Below are positions 1,447-43,065 of a DNA stretch of 44,756 nucleotides, piece by piece. The position numbers were made by a program, and so were the translations under genes. The DNA is taken from NCBI RefSeq assembly GCF_013376155.1, contig NZ_JABXXP010000003.1, forward strand, positions 1-44,756. The letters are read 5' to 3'. This DNA comes from Nguyenibacter vanlangensis. GTDB taxonomy: Bacteria; Pseudomonadota; Alphaproteobacteria; Acetobacterales; Acetobacteraceae. Below the pieces are notes generated by a model, which was not told the origin of the DNA, made no database searches, and worked only from the letters and a program-made list of their open reading frames with translations. Each line of letters opens with the position of its first letter. Position 1 is the stretch's first letter.

Positions 1447-3051
1447 TCAATTCTGGCTAGCGGTCTGAGTGGCCCACGTCAGGGTCTGGTTGGGCGATCC
1501 GTTTTGATAGGTCGCGGGCGCTGATCCAGATCCGTAATAGCGCTCGGGGGGCACAGCCAGGTTAATGACGTTCTTCGTGGATCCCGTTGAGCACGATGCC
1601 CCTGACGTCACATACATGGTGCCATCGTTGAAATCATGATCATCGATGATCAGACTGCCCCCATGGACGACACTACAATTTGACGTCGAATTAAACACGA
1701 TGGACGCGACAGCAGGGTGCTGCGTGTAAATCCGACCAAACTGGACAAACGCGCTGCCGTCGAGAGCGATATCTCCGCTGTTTGCAATAGCCGCCGGCGT
1801 CGCTGCCGTCAGATCGAGATGTTGGGTTTCCATTTGATCGATCTGGAATGATGCCCCATCACTACCATTCCAGACACACCGTAATCCCTGGTCGCAATCG
1901 ATCGTCCCGATCTGGACTTTGGTTGCTGTGCCGCCTGGCCGTGTCGCGCCGGTAGCGTCGGCAGCCGATCCGTCTGCAAGGGTCCTGACCCCGGACGCCA
2001 CCCCAAATACGAATATTTTATCCAGCATGGGGCTATCGACACGCCCAAGCTGTATAACGTTCGTATTGGTTTGTTGGTATTTTAAGACATCTAGTCCACC
2101 CGAGACGTAATCCCATTCGTGTATATTATAGATACGGTCCACATCATATGAATGATGAATGTCGGAGAGATAAATGTAAACTTGCCCGAACTGATTGTAT
2201 ATGCTCACTCGTCCTGAGAAATCAGCATGAATACCCCTCGTCACGCCCATCCACGTCAAATCACTGAACTCGATGCTTCCAGGGACCGTTTCAACGTCAA
2301 AGACGGGCGGATAATTGTTCGGCGTCCACGACGGTATCGAGCCCCCGGGCGATGGATTTGCAGATGGAGGCTGTCCCTCATAGATCTCGCATCCCCGTAT
2401 CTTGGTGCCGATCACGCCAGATCCTGTAAAAAGAAATGGAGACGCGGTAGAGCCAATGAAGGACGACGAAATGCTGAATATCGTGCCTCCCCCAAGCGCA
2501 TTTGCCTGCTGGAGAGACGATGGGACGCAGTCAAACACGCCCGGATTAAGCGCAGAAATTTGCGAGGCAATATTGTAAACACGTGGAAGGAATTTAATCC
2601 TTACCCCGCCTCCGTGGCTGGTGGCTGAGTTTATCGCGCGTTGGATCGAAGGCGCATCGTCCGATCCATCTGCAGGAATCTTCAGAGAATCAGGAACAAC
2701 AATGAATTGTTCGGTGACATAGCTACCCGCTGAGACGGTCGTTGTGCTGGAAATGGACGGCGAAGAGCTTATTGTTGCGCTAGTGACGGTCCCGCCATTA
2801 ATTGCCGGCGCCGTCAACGTCTGATTGGTCGACGCTCCGCCTTGCCGCAGCACCAGCCCCGCCTCGGCCTCCGTTGCACGCTGGATCTCGGCCGTGAGGC
2901 CGGACAGGTCTGCCTTGCCCTGCTGCATCGTGTTGAGCGCCGCCGCCGTGAGCACGGTGCCCGGAGCGAACGGCACGATCTGGGACTGTGCGTGCGCAGC
3001 CCCAATGCCCAGGGTGCAGCACAGCAGGGTTGCTGTGAGGATTCGGATCAT
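1447..3051 (-). CDS. Tail spike-like protein, pectate-lyase-type beta-helix, with Sec signal peptide
   Basis: 534 residues. The N-terminus (MIRILTATLLCCTLGIGAAH, then AQS) looks like a classical signal peptide with an AxA cleavage site near residue 21. Residues about 60-110 are Ser/Thr-rich. The segment with IPADGSDDAPSIQRAINSA and GGGVRIKFLP is the usual entry into a right-handed beta-helix (pectate lyase 3-like fold), followed by repetitive beta-rich sequence to the end. Such proteins bind or cut host surface polysaccharide. It is the last gene of the tail block. A signal peptide is unusual for a virion protein. Confidence 0.7.
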   Translation of the reverse strand: MIRILTATLLCCTLGIGAAHAQSQIVPFAPGTVLTAAALNTMQQGKADLSGLTAEIQRATEAEAGLVLRQGGASTNQTLTAPAINGGTVTSATISSSPSISSTTTVSAGSYVTEQFIVVPDSLKIPADGSDDAPSIQRAINSATSHGGGVRIKFLPRVYNIASQISALNPGVFDCVPSSLQQANALGGGTIFSISSSFIGSTASPFLFTGSGVIGTKIRGCEIYEGQPPSANPSPGGSIPSWTPNNYPPVFDVETVPGSIEFSDLTWMGVTRGIHADFSGRVSIYNQFGQVYIYLSDIHHSYDVDRIYNIHEWDYVSGGLDVLKYQQTNTNVIQLGRVDSPMLDKIFVFGVASGVRTLADGSAADATGATRPGGTATKVQIGTIDCDQGLRCVWNGSDGASFQIDQMETQHLDLTAATPAAIANSGDIALDGSAFVQFGRIYTQHPAVASIVFNSTSNCSVVHGGSLIIDDHDFNDGTMYVTSGASCSTGSTKNVINLAVPPERYYGSGSAPATYQNGSPNQTLTWATQTASQN

Positions 3052-35182: not shown

Positions 35183-35944
35183 ATGATAAAAACCAACAAC
35201 ATTCGAGCCATTCGAATGGCTCGGGGCCTGTCCCAAGCACGGCTTGCTGAGATCATTGGGACATCTCAGCCACAAATCGACCGGCTAGAAAAAGGCGAAC
35301 GGCGCTTGTCGGTGGAATGGCTTGAAAAAATTTCTACTGCTTTGGATGTCTACATTGGCTCTCTTATCCAAGTCTCGGACCCAGATGAAAATCAAATTCA
35401 ATCATTCAATGACATTGCGGGAAAATCTATCAACATAGAGGTAAGAAAGGCTATACAGTCAGCATCATCTATGGAGTTTGATATAATCAACGACGTAGCA
35501 GTTTCCGTAAATTGCCCACCAGGACTCATGAAAATATACAATAATTCTGAGACAAATATTAAGAAAAATGTTGTAGCATTCCGTATCCCAAATGATTCTC
35601 TTCATCCTCGTTGGAAGCGCTCTGAGATCGCATATTTATCCATTAATAATGATTTAAAGAATAGAAGCAATGAGGAATTTATAAATGAAAACGAAACAGG
35701 ACATTATGCAATAAAGCTGGAAGAAGGAAGCTACATTTTAACAAAAATTCTCGGAAAAAATGGGAAAAAATTCAGGTTATATTATCTTGATTCAAGGTCT
35801 GGTCAAAAGGAGTTTTTTATAAAAGAAGAGGATGTAAATTCTATATATAAGATTTTTGAGTGGGAAGAGCTTCTTTATGGCTGGAAAATGGAAACTCTTT
35901 ATTATCGCATTGCCGATCTAGTGGGATCAAAAAACACCAAATAG
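35183..35944 (+). CDS. CI-like repressor, HTH plus S24-like C-terminal domain
   Basis: 253 residues. Residues 6-60 are an XRE helix-turn-helix (MARGLSQARLAEIIGTSQPQ, IDRLEKGERRLS). The C-terminal domain keeps an S24 outline: NDSLHPRWKRSEIAYLS carries the candidate serine, and YILTKIL the candidate lysine. From about 35350 the gene is strikingly AT-rich compared with its HTH and with neighbours, which suggests recent exchange of the C-terminal part. It should maintain lysogeny by binding the three operators. Confidence 0.8.
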   Translation: MIKTNNIRAIRMARGLSQARLAEIIGTSQPQIDRLEKGERRLSVEWLEKISTALDVYIGSLIQVSDPDENQIQSFNDIAGKSINIEVRKAIQSASSMEFDIINDVAVSVNCPPGLMKIYNNSETNIKKNVVAFRIPNDSLHPRWKRSEIAYLSINNDLKNRSNEEFINENETGHYAIKLEEGSYILTKILGKNGKKFRLYYLDSRSGQKEFFIKEEDVNSIYKIFEWEELLYGWKMETLYYRIADLVGSKNTK

Positions 35945-36438: not shown

Positions 36439-36902
36439 ACGAACTGCACAATCCCATCTATACCGGTCAGTTGCGCGGACACGCCATCCGGTTCTTCGCT
36501 GCCCCCAACGGCGTGGTCGCCTTGCCGTGGCACTCCTGCGCCGACCTGGCGAGTGCTGCCGGACTGCCGGCCGACGCGCAGGACGTGTTCCTCCAAATGA
36601 CACGCTCTGGATCGTTCCAGGACAGTGTTCGGATGGTCCGCACCGATGCGGGGGAAGTGCTGATCGCCCCGCATTTCGTTGCCCAGGGCACGATCGGCGC
36701 ATTCAAGCAGTGCGGCTTTCTACCGGCCGACGATGCCTTCGAGAATGAATTCTATCGGGCCGGAATTGGCGCTGCGAAGGTGCTTCAGGCAGGCATGAGC
36801 CCGGAGGAACGCTTCGCCAATATCATCGCCTTGGGGCGCCAGCATCTCGGTGCCGACGATCCGATCTACGCTTCGACTCGTGGTGAAGGAAGCGCCGCAT
36901 GA
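36435..36902 (+). CDS. BRO-N-like/antirepressor-type protein, paralogue of 37747-38286
   Basis: 155 residues from ATG 36435. Residues about 14-46 read GHAIRFFAAPNGVVALPWHS, CADLASAAGLP, similar to the N-terminus of the protein at 37747. The pattern (short beta strands, then WHxxxxLxxAAG helix) resembles BRO/antirepressor N-terminal domains. The C-terminus has GMSPEERFANIIALGRQHLG. Coupled to Rha by ATGA. DNA-binding role inferred. Confidence 0.55.
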   Translation: MNELHNPIYTGQLRGHAIRFFAAPNGVVALPWHSCADLASAAGLPADAQDVFLQMTRSGSFQDSVRMVRTDAGEVLIAPHFVAQGTIGAFKQCGFLPADDAFENEFYRAGIGAAKVLQAGMSPEERFANIIALGRQHLGADDPIYASTRGEGSAA

Positions 36903-37747
36903 ACGCGATCCTTCCGACCGATGCGCCCCGCACCATGTCGTCGCGCGAGATCGCCGAGTTGACGGGCAAGGCGCATAAGAACGTGATCCGCGACATCGAG
37001 ACGATGATCGCAGACATAGAAAAAGATGGCTCAGATTTGAGCCATCAAGCAAAATCAAATGGTTACAGAATTGACCGCGACATACGCGGGTATGTGTCAG
37101 CGATCCACCTGACGCAGGATCTGACCTACAATCTCATCCTCGGATATGACGCGGTCCGTCGCCTGAAGGTGGTGCGCCGCTGGATGGAACTGGAGAGTGG
37201 TGCGGCCTCCGCCCCCAAGCCCAAGGCTCCCCGCGCGCCGGCGCTGATCGGTCCGCGCCGCCAGACGCTCGGGCTGATCGAGCTTTACACCCGCGTCAAC
37301 GAGATGCGCGGGCTGGACCGGAACGCGGCGCTGATCTCGGCGAACGACCGCGCGACGGTGAAGACGGGCATCAACCTGTTCGAGGAAGCCGGGCCGGTGC
37401 GCATGGACGCGCCGGATCAGGAACCGGTGATGAACGTCACCGCCATTGCTGCGGCGATCGGCGGCATCAGCAACCGCCGCATCAACCCGGCCCTGATCGA
37501 GATGGGCTACCAGATCAAGGGCGGAAAGGGTTGCCGTTGCCCTTACCAGGCGACCGACCTGGGCAAGCCGCATTCGCGCGTGGTCGATTCCCCGCGCAAG
37601 CATGCGTCCGGCTTCTCGCAGGAGCTTCTGTGGAAGCCGTCGATCATCCCGCTGATCAAGACCCACCTCGCCGGCGCGACCTCGCCCTACGCCGCCGTCG
37701 CGCTGGCGGCCGATGCCGATCTGGTGCCGCGGGGAGGGCTGCTGTGA
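36899..37747 (+). CDS. Rha family antirepressor/regulatory protein
   Basis: 282 residues. PRTMSSREIAELTGKAHKNV, IRDIETMI and LTQDLTYNLILGYDAVRRLK, VVRRWMELE define the pRha domain (about residues 10-105). The C-terminal half has an ANT-like segment, MNVTAIAAAIGGISNRRINP and MGYQIKGGKGC, the second domain used by phage antirepressors. Some Rha proteins limit infection of hosts lacking IHF. It is flanked by two related proteins. Confidence 0.85.
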   Translation: MNAILPTDAPRTMSSREIAELTGKAHKNVIRDIETMIADIEKDGSDLSHQAKSNGYRIDRDIRGYVSAIHLTQDLTYNLILGYDAVRRLKVVRRWMELESGAASAPKPKAPRAPALIGPRRQTLGLIELYTRVNEMRGLDRNAALISANDRATVKTGINLFEEAGPVRMDAPDQEPVMNVTAIAAAIGGISNRRINPALIEMGYQIKGGKGCRCPYQATDLGKPHSRVVDSPRKHASGFSQELLWKPSIIPLIKTHLAGATSPYAAVALAADADLVPRGGLL

Positions 37748-40248: not shown

Positions 40249-40520
40249 CCCCGCGTGAAGCATACGCGGCCCTCGGCCTGCGCGAGCCCTTCTCCCATGG
40301 CAAGGCTTGGGCTGAAGCAGTGTGGGGCGTCGAAGGTCGCCCCCTCCATGCAATCATGCCCAGCATGGAAGCTCGGGCCGAGGTCATGCGTGACTGCATG
40401 GAACATGATCTCAATCTCCCTGAAACCATTATCGATAAGCACATCGAATGTTTTGTTACGGCAGCAAAAGCCCGGCTTTACGATCTGGCCATGGCCCCCA
40501 AGGTGGCGGGGAACGCATGA
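40245..40520 (+). CDS. Small phage protein, unknown
   Basis: 91 residues, starting MTPREAYAALGLREPFSHGK and containing MPSMEARAEVMRDCMEHDLN. Helical, without membrane or metal motifs. ATGA overlaps join it to both neighbours, so it is a member of the integrase operon. Confidence 0.6.
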   Translation: MTPREAYAALGLREPFSHGKAWAEAVWGVEGRPLHAIMPSMEARAEVMRDCMEHDLNLPETIIDKHIECFVTAAKARLYDLAMAPKVAGNA

Positions 40521-41086
40521 AGACAGCGATTCATGGCAGGGCATTGCCGCCCGAAAGCATCGACTGGAGCGCGGTGAAATGTCTTTGGGTCCAAGATGCG
40601 TTGGACGAAATCAACGCACCGACCGTCTTCTTCCCGTGCGTCGTCTTCATGGATGACACATGGAGCTGTCTGGCCCTCACCACGGACATCACCAGCGCGC
40701 GGCAATGTGTTGCATGCCTCGGCGCACTCTACGACAAGCCGGTGAAGGATTGGACGAGGCCTGCGCCGGAAACGCTTGCGGAAGACAGTTTTTTCTACAG
40801 CATGCGCGATCTTCTTCCGGAAAATCATGGGCGGGAAATCCCCGAGCAGGAACCGCAATGGGGGGCGGGCTGGTCCGAAACCGACCATCTGTTCCGCGAT
40901 GGCGCAACAGGTGCTGAGTTCATGCATGAACTTGCCGAGATGGATCGCATCTTCAGGGAAGGAATTGTCGAGGAAGACCTCGACCGGGCGCGTGTAAGCA
41001 TGGCCCTTCGCGCCACGCGGGAAACAGCCGTCCGTCGTTGGATCATGCTCCACGTCGCCAATCCACGACATGAGGCCACACCATGA
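40517..41086 (+). CDS. Phage protein, unknown
   Basis: 189 residues from ATG 40517 ([20 protein letters not shown]). [20 protein letters not shown] and [14 protein letters not shown] are followed by an acidic part ([20 protein letters not shown]) and helices. Two cysteines in CVACLG are notable but insufficient for a metal site. ATGA-coupled on both sides. Confidence 0.6.
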
Positions 41087-41364
41087 AAATCACCGTCGAA
41101 GTCGATCTCGAAGCCGTCGGCAGGGCGATCGCAGATCACGCCCTGGTGGACGAGCGCGAAGGAGTAGACGCCATGTCCCTGATGCTGCGCGGCGCCGGCT
41201 TCGCCATCAGCCTGGGCCGCGCAGGAGGGCCGGAGTTGGAGCATGCCGCCATCGTTATAGCCTCGCTCGCAAAGGCCGCCAGCGACAGGGCGATGGAAAT
41301 CGTCCAGTCGATGGCTCTTCCCGATCAGGTTCTGGACCTATTGGAAGGAAGAAGGACGCCGTGA
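41083..41364 (+). CDS. Small phage protein, unknown
   Basis: 93 residues. It begins [20 protein letters not shown], with a beta strand then helices; [20 protein letters not shown] is a long helix. It directly precedes and overlaps (GTGA) the ClpX-zinc-finger gene, so the two products may be made in similar amounts. No recognised family. Confidence 0.6.
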
Positions 41365-41597
41365 GCGACAAGAAACCTGAAGCCCTTTTCTGTTCATTTT
41401 GCGGCGCGTCAGCAAAGGAGGCGAAAATTCTGATAGCCGGTCCGAGCGTCTTTATCTGCGACGAGTGTGTGGACGTGTGCCGAGACATCATCGTGGAGAA
41501 GAAGGCTACCAGCGTGGCCACGAAGCTCTTGGGCCCGCCTATTCGGTTGCTTCATTTCCTGCGGCCGCGCCGGAAAAGCATAGGGCTGGCGCCATGA
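41361..41597 (+). CDS. Stand-alone ClpX-type C4 zinc finger protein
   Basis: 78 residues from GTG 41361, GTGA overlap with the gene before. Residues 9-48 reproduce the ClpX N-terminal zinc-binding domain: [20 protein letters not shown], then [20 protein letters not shown], with C11, C14, C33 and C36. In ClpX this domain dimerises and receives substrates and adaptors. The AAA+ ATPase that should follow is absent; instead there is a short basic tail ([11 protein letters not shown]). It could act as adaptor or inhibitor of host ClpXP; that is inference. Confidence 0.85.
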
Positions 41598-41674
41598 CCG
41601 ATCGCGAGTCTCCCTTGATAGAGGGCTGGCGTTACGTCGGACCCTGCCTGCCGCCGGAGGTGGGAAATGAGTGA
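41594..41674 (+). CDS. 26-residue coupled peptide
   Basis: [20 protein letters not shown], then six more residues. It starts inside the stop of the zinc-finger gene (ATGA) and overlaps the excisionase start by eight bases. Too short for ORF lists; accepted only because of double overlap. It may simply carry ribosomes to the excisionase start. Confidence 0.4.
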
Positions 41675-41900
41675 CGTGACCCCTCGTGCCCTCGGCACTG
41701 ACGAGGCTGCGCGTTACCTCAGCCTGTCTCGCGAGACGTTCCGCAAGCATGTGGCGCCCGACATCCGACCGATCCATATCGGCCGCCGGATCGTCTGGCT
41801 GCGCGAGGATCTGGACCTATGGCTCGACCGGGCAGCCGGGAAGGAAGTGGTTGCAGAGCCGATGGCGAAGCGCCAGAACCCACTTGATGCCCTGCTGTGA
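41667..41900 (+). CDS. Excisionase-like HTH (AlpA/MerR type)
   Basis: 77 residues. ALGTDEAARYLSLSRETFRK, HVAPDIRPIHIGRRIVWLRE and DLDLWLDRAAGK form the winged HTH_17 fold of excisionases and AlpA-like proteins. Immediately upstream of, and overlapping, the integrase gene. It should direct the integrase towards excision. Confidence 0.8.
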   Translation: MSDVTPRALGTDEAARYLSLSRETFRKHVAPDIRPIHIGRRIVWLREDLDLWLDRAAGKEVVAEPMAKRQNPLDALL

Positions 41901-42958
41901 TCGTTGTCCGCTTGCGCTACATTCACCGGGTGAAAGACCGGTATGGGCGGCTGCACTTCTATCTGAGGCGCCCGGGCCATAAATCGATCGCGCTGCCGCA
42001 TGAGAACGACCCTGGGTTCATCTCCGCATATCAGGCCGCCCTTGCCACGACTGAAGCAGCAGTCGCTGCACCCAAGATCGGAACCGACACGCTCGGCGCA
42101 TTGATCGAGGCTTGGCAAGTCAGCGCGCATTTCCGGCAACTCGGGCAGTCCACGCAGTCGAATTATCGCCGTATCCTGGCCCGCATGGGCCGCGAGGATT
42201 ACGCAACGCACAAGGTGCGGGACTTCGAAGCGATGCATGTCCGGCGATTCGTTGCTCGCGCTGCAGAAACGCCGGCCGCGGCGAACCACCGGCTTCGGCT
42301 CTTTCGGATGCTGTTCCGCTTTGCTGTCGACGATGGGTGGATCGATAAAGACCCCACGATCGGCGTGCGCCGCCTCAAGGAGAAGGGGGAGGGGGCCAAA
42401 AGCTGGTCCGAGGCCGAGATAACGCGGTTCGAACATCGGTGGGCGCCCGGAACGCAGCAGAGGCTGGCCTTCTCGCTCCTGCTCTATACCGGTCAGCGGC
42501 GCAGCGATGTCGTCAAGATGGGCTGGGATGACGTCGAGGACGGCTTATTGCGGGTCCATCAGATCAAGACGGGTGCCGCGCTTCTGATCCCCATTCATGA
42601 GATGCTGCTGCGCGAGATCGAGCGATGCGACCCTGCGGCTCCGCGATTTCTGATGACGCGCGAGGGACGGTCGAAGCCCTATAGCCCGAACGGGTTCTAC
42701 AACCATTTTGTCGAGTGGGTGGAGGCCGCCGGGCTGCCAGCGGGACTGAGCCCCCACGGTCTCCGCAAGGCGGCCGCCAGGCGCTTGGCCGAATCGGGAT
42801 GCACGCCGCACCAGATCGCGGCCATCACTGGCCATAAAACCCTGTCAGAAGTGGAGCGCTACACCCGCGCTGTCGATCAGGTTCGCCTCGCTCGGGAGGC
42901 GATGGAGCGGATCGCTCGTGTAAAACTCAATCCAGGTGTTTGTAAAACACCAGACTAA
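41897..42958 (+). CDS. int: Tyrosine integrase
   Basis: 353 residues from GTG 41897, overlapping the excisionase stop. The C-terminal catalytic domain carries the full set: R201 (TGQRRSD), K224 (HQIKTGA), H287 and R290 (SPHGLRKAA), H313 (ITGHKTL) and nucleophile Y322 (VERYTR). The N-terminal part is a SAM-like core-binding domain (TQSNYRRILARMGREDYATH). It lies 31 bases from the tRNA-Glu 3' end, the inferred target. Confidence 0.95.
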   Translation: MIVVRLRYIHRVKDRYGRLHFYLRRPGHKSIALPHENDPGFISAYQAALATTEAAVAAPKIGTDTLGALIEAWQVSAHFRQLGQSTQSNYRRILARMGREDYATHKVRDFEAMHVRRFVARAAETPAAANHRLRLFRMLFRFAVDDGWIDKDPTIGVRRLKEKGEGAKSWSEAEITRFEHRWAPGTQQRLAFSLLLYTGQRRSDVVKMGWDDVEDGLLRVHQIKTGAALLIPIHEMLLREIERCDPAAPRFLMTREGRSKPYSPNGFYNHFVEWVEAAGLPAGLSPHGLRKAAARRLAESGCTPHQIAAITGHKTLSEVERYTRAVDQVRLAREAMERIARVKLNPGVCKTPD

Positions 42959-42989
42959 GATATTGATTTATGAGGGTATTTTTTAGCCG

Positions 42990-43025
42990 TGGCGTCCCAT
43001 AGGGGATTCGAACCCCTGTTGCCGC
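42990..43025. other. Inferred attachment site within tRNA-Glu 3' half
   Basis: The integrase gene ends at 42958 and the tRNA's CCA end faces it at 42990. Tyrosine integrases of this type usually recombine in the 3' half of a tRNA and restore it. The exact core cannot be defined because the other prophage end is outside the window; the interval given is the tRNA's 3' part and is approximate. Confidence 0.5.
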
Positions 43026-43065
43026 CGTGAGAGGGCGGTGTCCTAGGCCTCTAGACGAATGGGAC
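42990..43065 (-). tRNA. tRNA-Glu (anticodon CTC)
   Basis: 76 bases including encoded CCA. The acceptor stem is GTCCCAT paired with ATGGGAC. The anticodon stem CCGCC/GGCGG encloses loop CTCTCAC with anticodon CTC (codon GAG). The T arm is AGGGG-TTCGAAT-CCCCT. All features intact, so integration left the tRNA functional. It lies between prophage and recJ on the same strand as recJ. Confidence 0.95.

Follow-up and report, generated by a model that had tools for sequence, protein, structure and literature searches.

Can a phage carry the zinc-binding domain of ClpX as a gene of its own, and what would such a gene be for? The question is raised by a short gene in a 44,756 bp stretch of Nguyenibacter vanlangensis DNA (contig NZ_JABXXP010000003.1, positions 1–44,756), which we refer to as the window and which is itself also an IMG/VR record. 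The outcome of some prophage and island switches depends on ClpX, but as far as we are aware, phage proteins known to control this protein are few. An earlier note on this DNA had described a 78-residue frame at 41361–41597 with four ClpX-type cysteines and without AAA+ domain; coordinates, length and a match to the Pfam family PF06689 all agree with this description. The presence of a stand-alone phage gene for the ClpX N-terminal zinc domain at this position is thus confirmed. The features of the region are:

35183–35944, + strand: protein with repressor/regulator PHROG matches, upstream of the zinc-domain gene
36899–37747, + strand: Rha-type regulator, upstream of the zinc-domain gene
40448–41086, + strand: gene for 212 residues, function unassigned; relatives 74% and 80% identical in prophages of G. 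johannae and G. sacchari
41083–41364, + strand: gene for 93 residues, function unassigned; relatives 68% identical in the same two Gluconacetobacter prophages
41343–41356, + strand: purine-rich run resembling a ribosome-binding site, before the GTG of the zinc-domain gene (read from sequence)
41361–41597, + strand: stand-alone ClpX zinc-binding domain gene, 78 residues, GTG start, domain at about residues 8–47 (frame, Pfam, solved relatives, structure model)
41594–41674, + strand: putative frame of 26 codons, overlapping its two neighbours by 4 and 8 bases (read from sequence)
41667–41900, + strand: excisionase-like HTH_17 protein, 77 residues (Pfam, PHROG, NCBIfam)
41897–42958, + strand: tyrosine integrase, 353 residues (Pfam, PHROG)
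42990–43065, − strand: tRNA-Glu (CTC), prophage end; the tRNA adjoins the integrase end

The GTG start of the zinc-domain gene overlaps the end of the upstream gene 41083–41364 by 4 bases, and the proteins of relatives begin within a few residues of this point. The same frame can be read from an ATG at 41070, giving 175 residues; this reading was rejected, as it overlaps, in another frame, the gene 41083–41364 that is conserved in relatives. The zinc ligands of the 78-residue protein are C11, C14, C33 and C36. A fifth cysteine, C40, also has a counterpart in ClpX, and the C-terminus is a basic, partly hydrophobic tail of 31 residues. In the Pfam scan, zf-C4_ClpX (PF06689) covers residues 10–46 with 58.9 bits (E 4.6e-16; curated cut-off 27 bits) and is the sole family above its cut-off, two further matches lying below theirs. 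The NCBIfam ClpX models cover only residues 3–52; their score of 44 bits is far short of the required 359 and 371. PHROG matches are mostly to uncharacterised phage families, one being described as protease. None of these three scans gave an excisionase match for the protein, while the neighbour 41667–41900 carries one. No AAA+ domain with Walker motifs was found after the zinc domain in the window. At E ≤ 10, the protein matches seven distinct sequences of solved structures, all of them ClpX; the best are the E. coli ClpX zinc domains 1ovx and 2ds5 (E about 5e-15).

In a structure model, built with 39 aligned stand-alone proteins, the fold of the zinc domain is of ClpX type. The block means of the predicted confidence (pLDDT) are 92–97 over residues 11–50 and then fall to 64, 55 and 48 in the tail, which is thus modelled at low confidence. 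By Foldseek, the model superposes on the ClpX zinc domains 2ds5, 2ds6, 2ds7 and 2ds8 (0.5–1.3 Å, target TM 0.87–0.92) and on 1ovx (1.7 Å, target TM 0.73); the title of 2ds8 refers to a ZBD–XB complex. The first match outside ClpX appears at E 0.86. Within a library of viral models, the window protein comes closest to a protein of Pseudomonas phage PP9W2 labelled ‘Clp protease’ (E 2.1e-4).

The alignment places F13 and I43 of the phage protein at the positions of F16 and I46 of E. coli ClpX. According to PMC7804408, these two residues belong to a hydrophobic side pocket of the zinc-domain dimer and are required for the enhancement by trigger factor; SspB and RssB are reported there to bind the same hydrophobic region, which overlaps the site for lambda O, a protein whose degradation depends on the zinc domain. 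The same paper shows that the rate varies with the number of zinc-domain dimers per ClpX hexamer, and an extra free domain could therefore matter.

Successive overlaps of 4 to 8 bases join 41083–41364, the zinc-domain gene, the 26-codon frame, the excisionase-like gene 41667–41900 and the integrase gene 41897–42958, and on these grounds the chain 41083–42958 is suggested to be one translationally coupled message. The zinc-domain gene had been placed directly before xis and int. It does belong to the same chain; the 26-codon frame 41594–41674, however, intervenes before the excisionase-like gene. The tRNA-end sequence occurs only once in the window, so no attL was found there and the contig probably begins inside the prophage. 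As a separate observation, tRNA-Glu (CTC) at window positions 42983–43065 seems to serve more than one element as integration site. In a second genome of the species, which is 99% identical to the window from about 42983 rightwards, the same tRNA adjoins a different, integrase-type frame. This frame has at least 474 residues, being truncated where the available sequence stops, and matches Phage_int_SAM_1 above the cut-off.

The same arrangement is found in the prophages of G. johannae LMG 21312 and G. sacchari LMG 19747, where relatives of 40448–41086 and 41083–41364 are followed by a 74-residue zinc-domain protein and then by an integrase. The integrase of G. sacchari is 69% identical to that of the window. 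That of G. johannae, a Phage_integrase protein, gave no blastp match to the window integrase at E 1e-3. The slot is thus kept in three prophages, with an unlike integrase in one of them. Among the Gluconacetobacter genomes searched, 14 of 14 have a clpX-sized match, to which a short additional match is added in three. Genome G282 contains a fourth basic-tailed relative; no integrase was detected in the 19.5 kb examined there.

Over the whole protein, the window copy is 41% and 36% identical to its two slot-mates and 42% identical to the G282 protein. In the 37-residue core it shares 25 and 23 residues with the slot-mates, 25 with ClpX of its own host and 26 with ClpX of E. coli. The core is therefore no closer to the slot-mates than to ClpX, and variants may have been swapped in and out of the slot, as opposed to a single gene diverging slowly in place; what ties the window protein to its slot-mates is position and an alignment that extends into the tail. 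The dN/dS values of the window pairs are 0.25 and 0.32, with dS near saturation, and those of the upstream gene in the same pairs are 0.49 and 0.54. In the close pair G123–G206, the zinc-domain gene has 0.50 and the upstream gene 0.18. From these ratios, purifying selection on the zinc-domain gene appears likely, though not strongly shown. Recent capture from the host's own clpX was considered and found no support, the core being no more similar to host ClpX (25/37) than to E. coli ClpX (26/37).

That the gene encodes only the ClpX N-domain and is no scattered fragment of clpX is borne out by comparison with related loci. The host clpX lies elsewhere, on another contig of the same genome (C40 of G000), and encodes 419 residues. 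When the AAA+ part of this protein was used as tblastn query, none of 55 stand-alone locus records matched (47 viral records including L119, which is the window, seven genome stretches and the window again, so that it is counted twice), and nothing was found in four further genome loci. All 38 full-length ClpX loci, used as positive controls, matched. Decay of a complete clpX gene is rejected on this basis, and the zinc cysteines and many ClpX-type residues are conserved. One isolated broken copy was seen: at L019:5965–6117 (+), a phage zinc-domain copy ends after 23 residues while the tblastn match runs on.

To count such genes among phages, we scanned viral contigs by profile and used the best 80 of 177 relatives together with 10 further loci; repeats were omitted, among them the near-identical E. 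coli loci L013–L018 and L020 (L017 reappears in the enterobacterial dN/dS comparison below). The resulting 90 loci comprise 38 full ClpX genes, two cut by the contig end and 50 stand-alone copies. After removal of the window (L119), three repeats (L007, L008, L012) and the broken copy L019, 45 loci in 38 groups remained. A search of 50,697 phage records at E 0.01 gave matches in 51, a part of which bear the annotation of a ClpX subunit. The corresponding number for plasmid records is 154 of 72,556, and many of the 40 listed are clpX or lie on very large replicons.

In bacterial genomes, the Pfam surveys found a stand-alone copy in at least six of 200 across the family and in five of 290 across the class. 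The genome of the window is counted in both surveys, and only genomes with two matches were followed, so that single-match genomes with a stand-alone copy would be missed. The other second matches have a Walker motif downstream in G167, G439, G680 and G689 and were taken as further clpX genes, or, in four genomes, represent a single ClpX match that was split in two. One protein is common to the viral and genome sets, as L137 and G102 both carry it. Of 5426 complete E. coli genomes, 109 contain a relative of the type found in phage P88, which makes the idea developed below testable in laboratory E. coli.

Conservation was analysed by a column count of 47 non-redundant stand-alone domains (window included) against 26 ClpX domains; L177 was excluded for its different cysteine spacing, and the percentages are subject to sampling bias. 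At positions other than the ligands, the stand-alone domains carry the ClpX residue in 97% (F17), 91% (K20), 93% (A30), 95% (G31), 97% (E39) and 87% (C44) of cases. The scan patterns span positions 13–20 and 34–40, where conservation is inflated by the search; A30, G31 and C44 lie outside these positions. The window protein itself differs from the ClpX norm at K20, Q22, H23, V25 and K27.

Enterobacterial relatives (L113:4815–5135, L114:5821–6153, L170, L180, L186, L197 and L017) have a similar N-terminal part, while the zinc-domain half is often more variable; between L170 and L180 the differences are almost confined to that half. Six close relatives gave 14 pairs with defined dN/dS in both halves, and one undefined pair; in 10 of the 14 the zinc-domain half has the larger value, in four the N-terminal half. 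The values range from 0.0 to 1.19 in the domain half and from 0.25 to 0.71 in the N-terminal half. Fast change of the zinc domain in these relatives is suggestive only, and mosaic exchange is equally likely.

The association with integration genes was checked with a profile grown from the window integrase, requiring an integrase frame on the same strand that starts at most 1 kb downstream. Such a frame follows six of the 10 stand-alone copies in genomes (G000, G123, G059, G102, G107, G511); at the other four (G051, G436, G471, G678) the profile search found none within this distance. It follows six of the 38 viral groups and was not found within 1 kb downstream in the other 32. At other positions of the viral loci the integrase rate is 0.45%, though the way in which the loci were excised makes this control too low, and a rough expectation for 1 kb in about 45 kb is about 2%. 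The earlier note had asked whether ClpX-N-only genes recur beside xis and int; they recur beside integrase in six of the 10 genome cases and in a minority of the phage groups, and the 32 groups speak against a reading narrowed to xis and int. We conclude that the link between zinc domain and integrase is likely to be real in these Alphaproteobacteria, though not universal.

Other settings occur as well. The zinc-domain genes of P88, phi1 and PP9W2 have replication genes nearby, whereas that of D6 belongs to a different part of the early region. No feature named integrase occurs in the inspected stretch of seven annotated phage records, one of which has a ‘DNA breaking-rejoining protein’ about 3 kb off on the other strand. 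A scan of 147 neighbouring frames, based on crude gene calls, revealed no dominant function and thus gave no support to a general tie to replication genes. Among the 25 of 138 neighbour families that were listed, phrog_368 is the commonest (six of the 147 frames) and has no description; two integrase families have four matches each and DNA methyltransferase families two to three each.

Stand-alone ClpX zinc-domain proteins are already named by NCBI annotation and contained in PHROG families (phrog_6797, phrog_12435, phrog_5259). Phage proteins annotated as ‘ClpX C4-type zinc finger protein’, ‘Clp protease’ or ‘carboxylate-amine ligase’ (in P88, D6, PP9W2 and phi1) likewise contain a stand-alone domain of this kind and are encoded in early regions. 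Unlike the window protein, those of P88 and D6 are extended at the N-terminus by about 60 residues and lack such a basic tail. With the ClpX zinc domain (1ovx, 2ds5–2ds8) the window protein has in common the four zinc cysteines, their spacing, the fold, the pocket residues F and I and the fifth cysteine; it differs in having no AAA+ motor and a C-terminal tail of its own, and 25 of 37 core residues are as in host ClpX. Searches of an open-access library turned up neither a description nor a functional study of a phage protein consisting only of the ClpX zinc domain, subscription papers being mostly outside their scope. What we consider new is the slot beside xis and int, the evidence against decay from clpX, the conservation of the docking pocket and the diversity of the parts joined to the domain.

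What could a protein of this kind do? Judging from the Pfam match, the predicted fold, the pocket residues, the ClpX-like non-ligand positions, the slot shared by three prophages, the integrase neighbours and the absence of clpX decay, our main reading, to which we assign a probability of about 0.4, is that it acts as a free phage copy of the ClpX docking domain and competes for, or redirects, clients and adaptors that depend on the N-domain. It would form a ClpX-type dimer with itself and possibly with the N-domains of host ClpX, and would present the hydrophobic pocket to adaptors and N-domain-dependent substrates. Competition for these would shift which proteins ClpX or ClpXP handles during integration or excision of the phage; the likeliest effect would be that an N-domain-dependent regulator of phage or host is spared. 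Entry into host ClpX hexamers and altered turnover of repressor, excisionase or host proteins, both proposed in the earlier note, are hypothetical. SspB, RssB, CpdR and trigger factor work through the same proposed site, that is N-domain-dependent recruitment; these proteins bind the zinc domain, whereas the phage protein is the zinc domain itself (PMC7804408). In other systems ClpX acts on prophage and island switches: it is needed to relieve repression by CI fragments in S. aureus phages (PMC10584840), and SaPI5 is derepressed and excised in clpX mutants (PMC6848492). In Caulobacter, the N-domain of ClpX has a species-specific role (PMC5422525). Several points count against the competitor reading. 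According to PMC10584840, the lytic cycle of phages in S. aureus does not involve Clp proteases. The five deviations of the window protein from the ClpX norm do not favour a competing docking domain, and from the core identities neither a match to the host nor close kinship to the slot-mates seems visible. The broken copy L019 and the 32 phage groups without an adjoining integrase also weigh against this reading, and a pure competitor has no need of variable flanking parts. Flanks that vary between families are as compatible with an adaptor, or with a function linked to DNA, as they are with plain competition.

The protein might instead be a plug-in adaptor, the zinc domain pairing with the host ClpX N-domain and the variable part, here the basic tail, bringing cargo for unfolding or degradation. 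A constant domain with varying partners argues for this: basic tails occur in the window protein and in G123, G206, G282, L159 and L163, N-terminal parts in P88 and D6 look helical from their sequence, and L223–L225 have HTH-like ends. Two further proteins join the domain to a recognisable partner, a dUTPase_2 match in the viral contig protein L176:4983–5510 (+; E 1.1e-4, just at the cut-off) and an N-terminal Glyoxalase_8 match in L080:5952–6626 (−) of genome G051. However, the tail of the window protein is modelled at low confidence after residue 50 and its amphipathic pattern was reached by 209 of 1000 shuffles; among the six tails, only G123 (0.03) and L163 (0.015) fall below 0.05 in this comparison. 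We regard an adaptor role as rather unlikely, yet as a serious rival. The same holds for a second view, unlikely in our judgement, that the protein is a DNA-linked accessory of the integration module, in which the zinc domain only dimerises, the basic tail binds DNA or recombinase and ClpX is uninvolved. The gene adjoins xis and int, and the tails of the six proteins carry net charges of +4 to +7. Outside the domain, the mean charge is +4.5 for integrase-adjacent copies (n = 11) and +1.0 for the others (n = 33; p 0.049), two of the highest values belonging to long frames with uncertain start. Three zinc-domain proteins end in an HTH-like sequence, with only sub-threshold Pfam HTH matches in the two that were scanned; these three, though, have no integrase match in the 14 kb around each. 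The domain core is acidic (net −2 in the window protein, mean −1.8 in stand-alone copies and −2.6 in ClpX), and its non-ligand positions track ClpX instead of drifting freely, neither of which speaks for a mere DNA-bound dimeriser.

It is quite improbable that the gene is a mere passenger, of slight or no use to the window phage. The low identity to the slot-mates, set against 68–80% for the upstream genes, the higher dN/dS of the zinc-domain gene in the pair G123–G206 and the broken copy L019 would suit it. On the other hand, the zinc ligands are intact in three prophages despite one unlike integrase, the window pairs have lower dN/dS than the upstream gene, dS being near saturation there, and many phages have stand-alone copies. 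Returning to the free docking domain, a wider possibility can be put forward tentatively, as somewhat doubtful: stand-alone docks may be widespread phage effectors that are repeatedly rebuilt by joining a changeable part to an invariant dock, which would receive the ClpX hexamer or the clients of ClpX. With such proteins, temperate phages would adjust how fast their switch, replication or recombination proteins are turned over; among Alphaproteobacteria, the gene would often sit in the integration module and couple excision or integration to host proteolysis. If ClpX is indeed bound, phages possess, in separable form, parts of the domain by which the protease recognises its clients. Degradation that depends on the N-domain could then be blocked or redirected by simple means, and prophage excision would be tied to host proteolysis in a way open to experiment.

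Two minor observations concern proteins outside this argument. The HTH-ended alphaproteobacterial proteins are encoded at L223:6872–7276 (−), L224:6798–7151 (−) and L225:6924–7259 (+); two of them share an ending of the type SWADIGxALGxSRQAAWERF, with a variant in L225. In the window, a 534-residue protein is encoded beside the late genes at 1447–3051 (−); its match to a PHROG labelled pectin lyase activity (E 2.3e-11) marks it as possibly a tail-associated polysaccharide-active protein.
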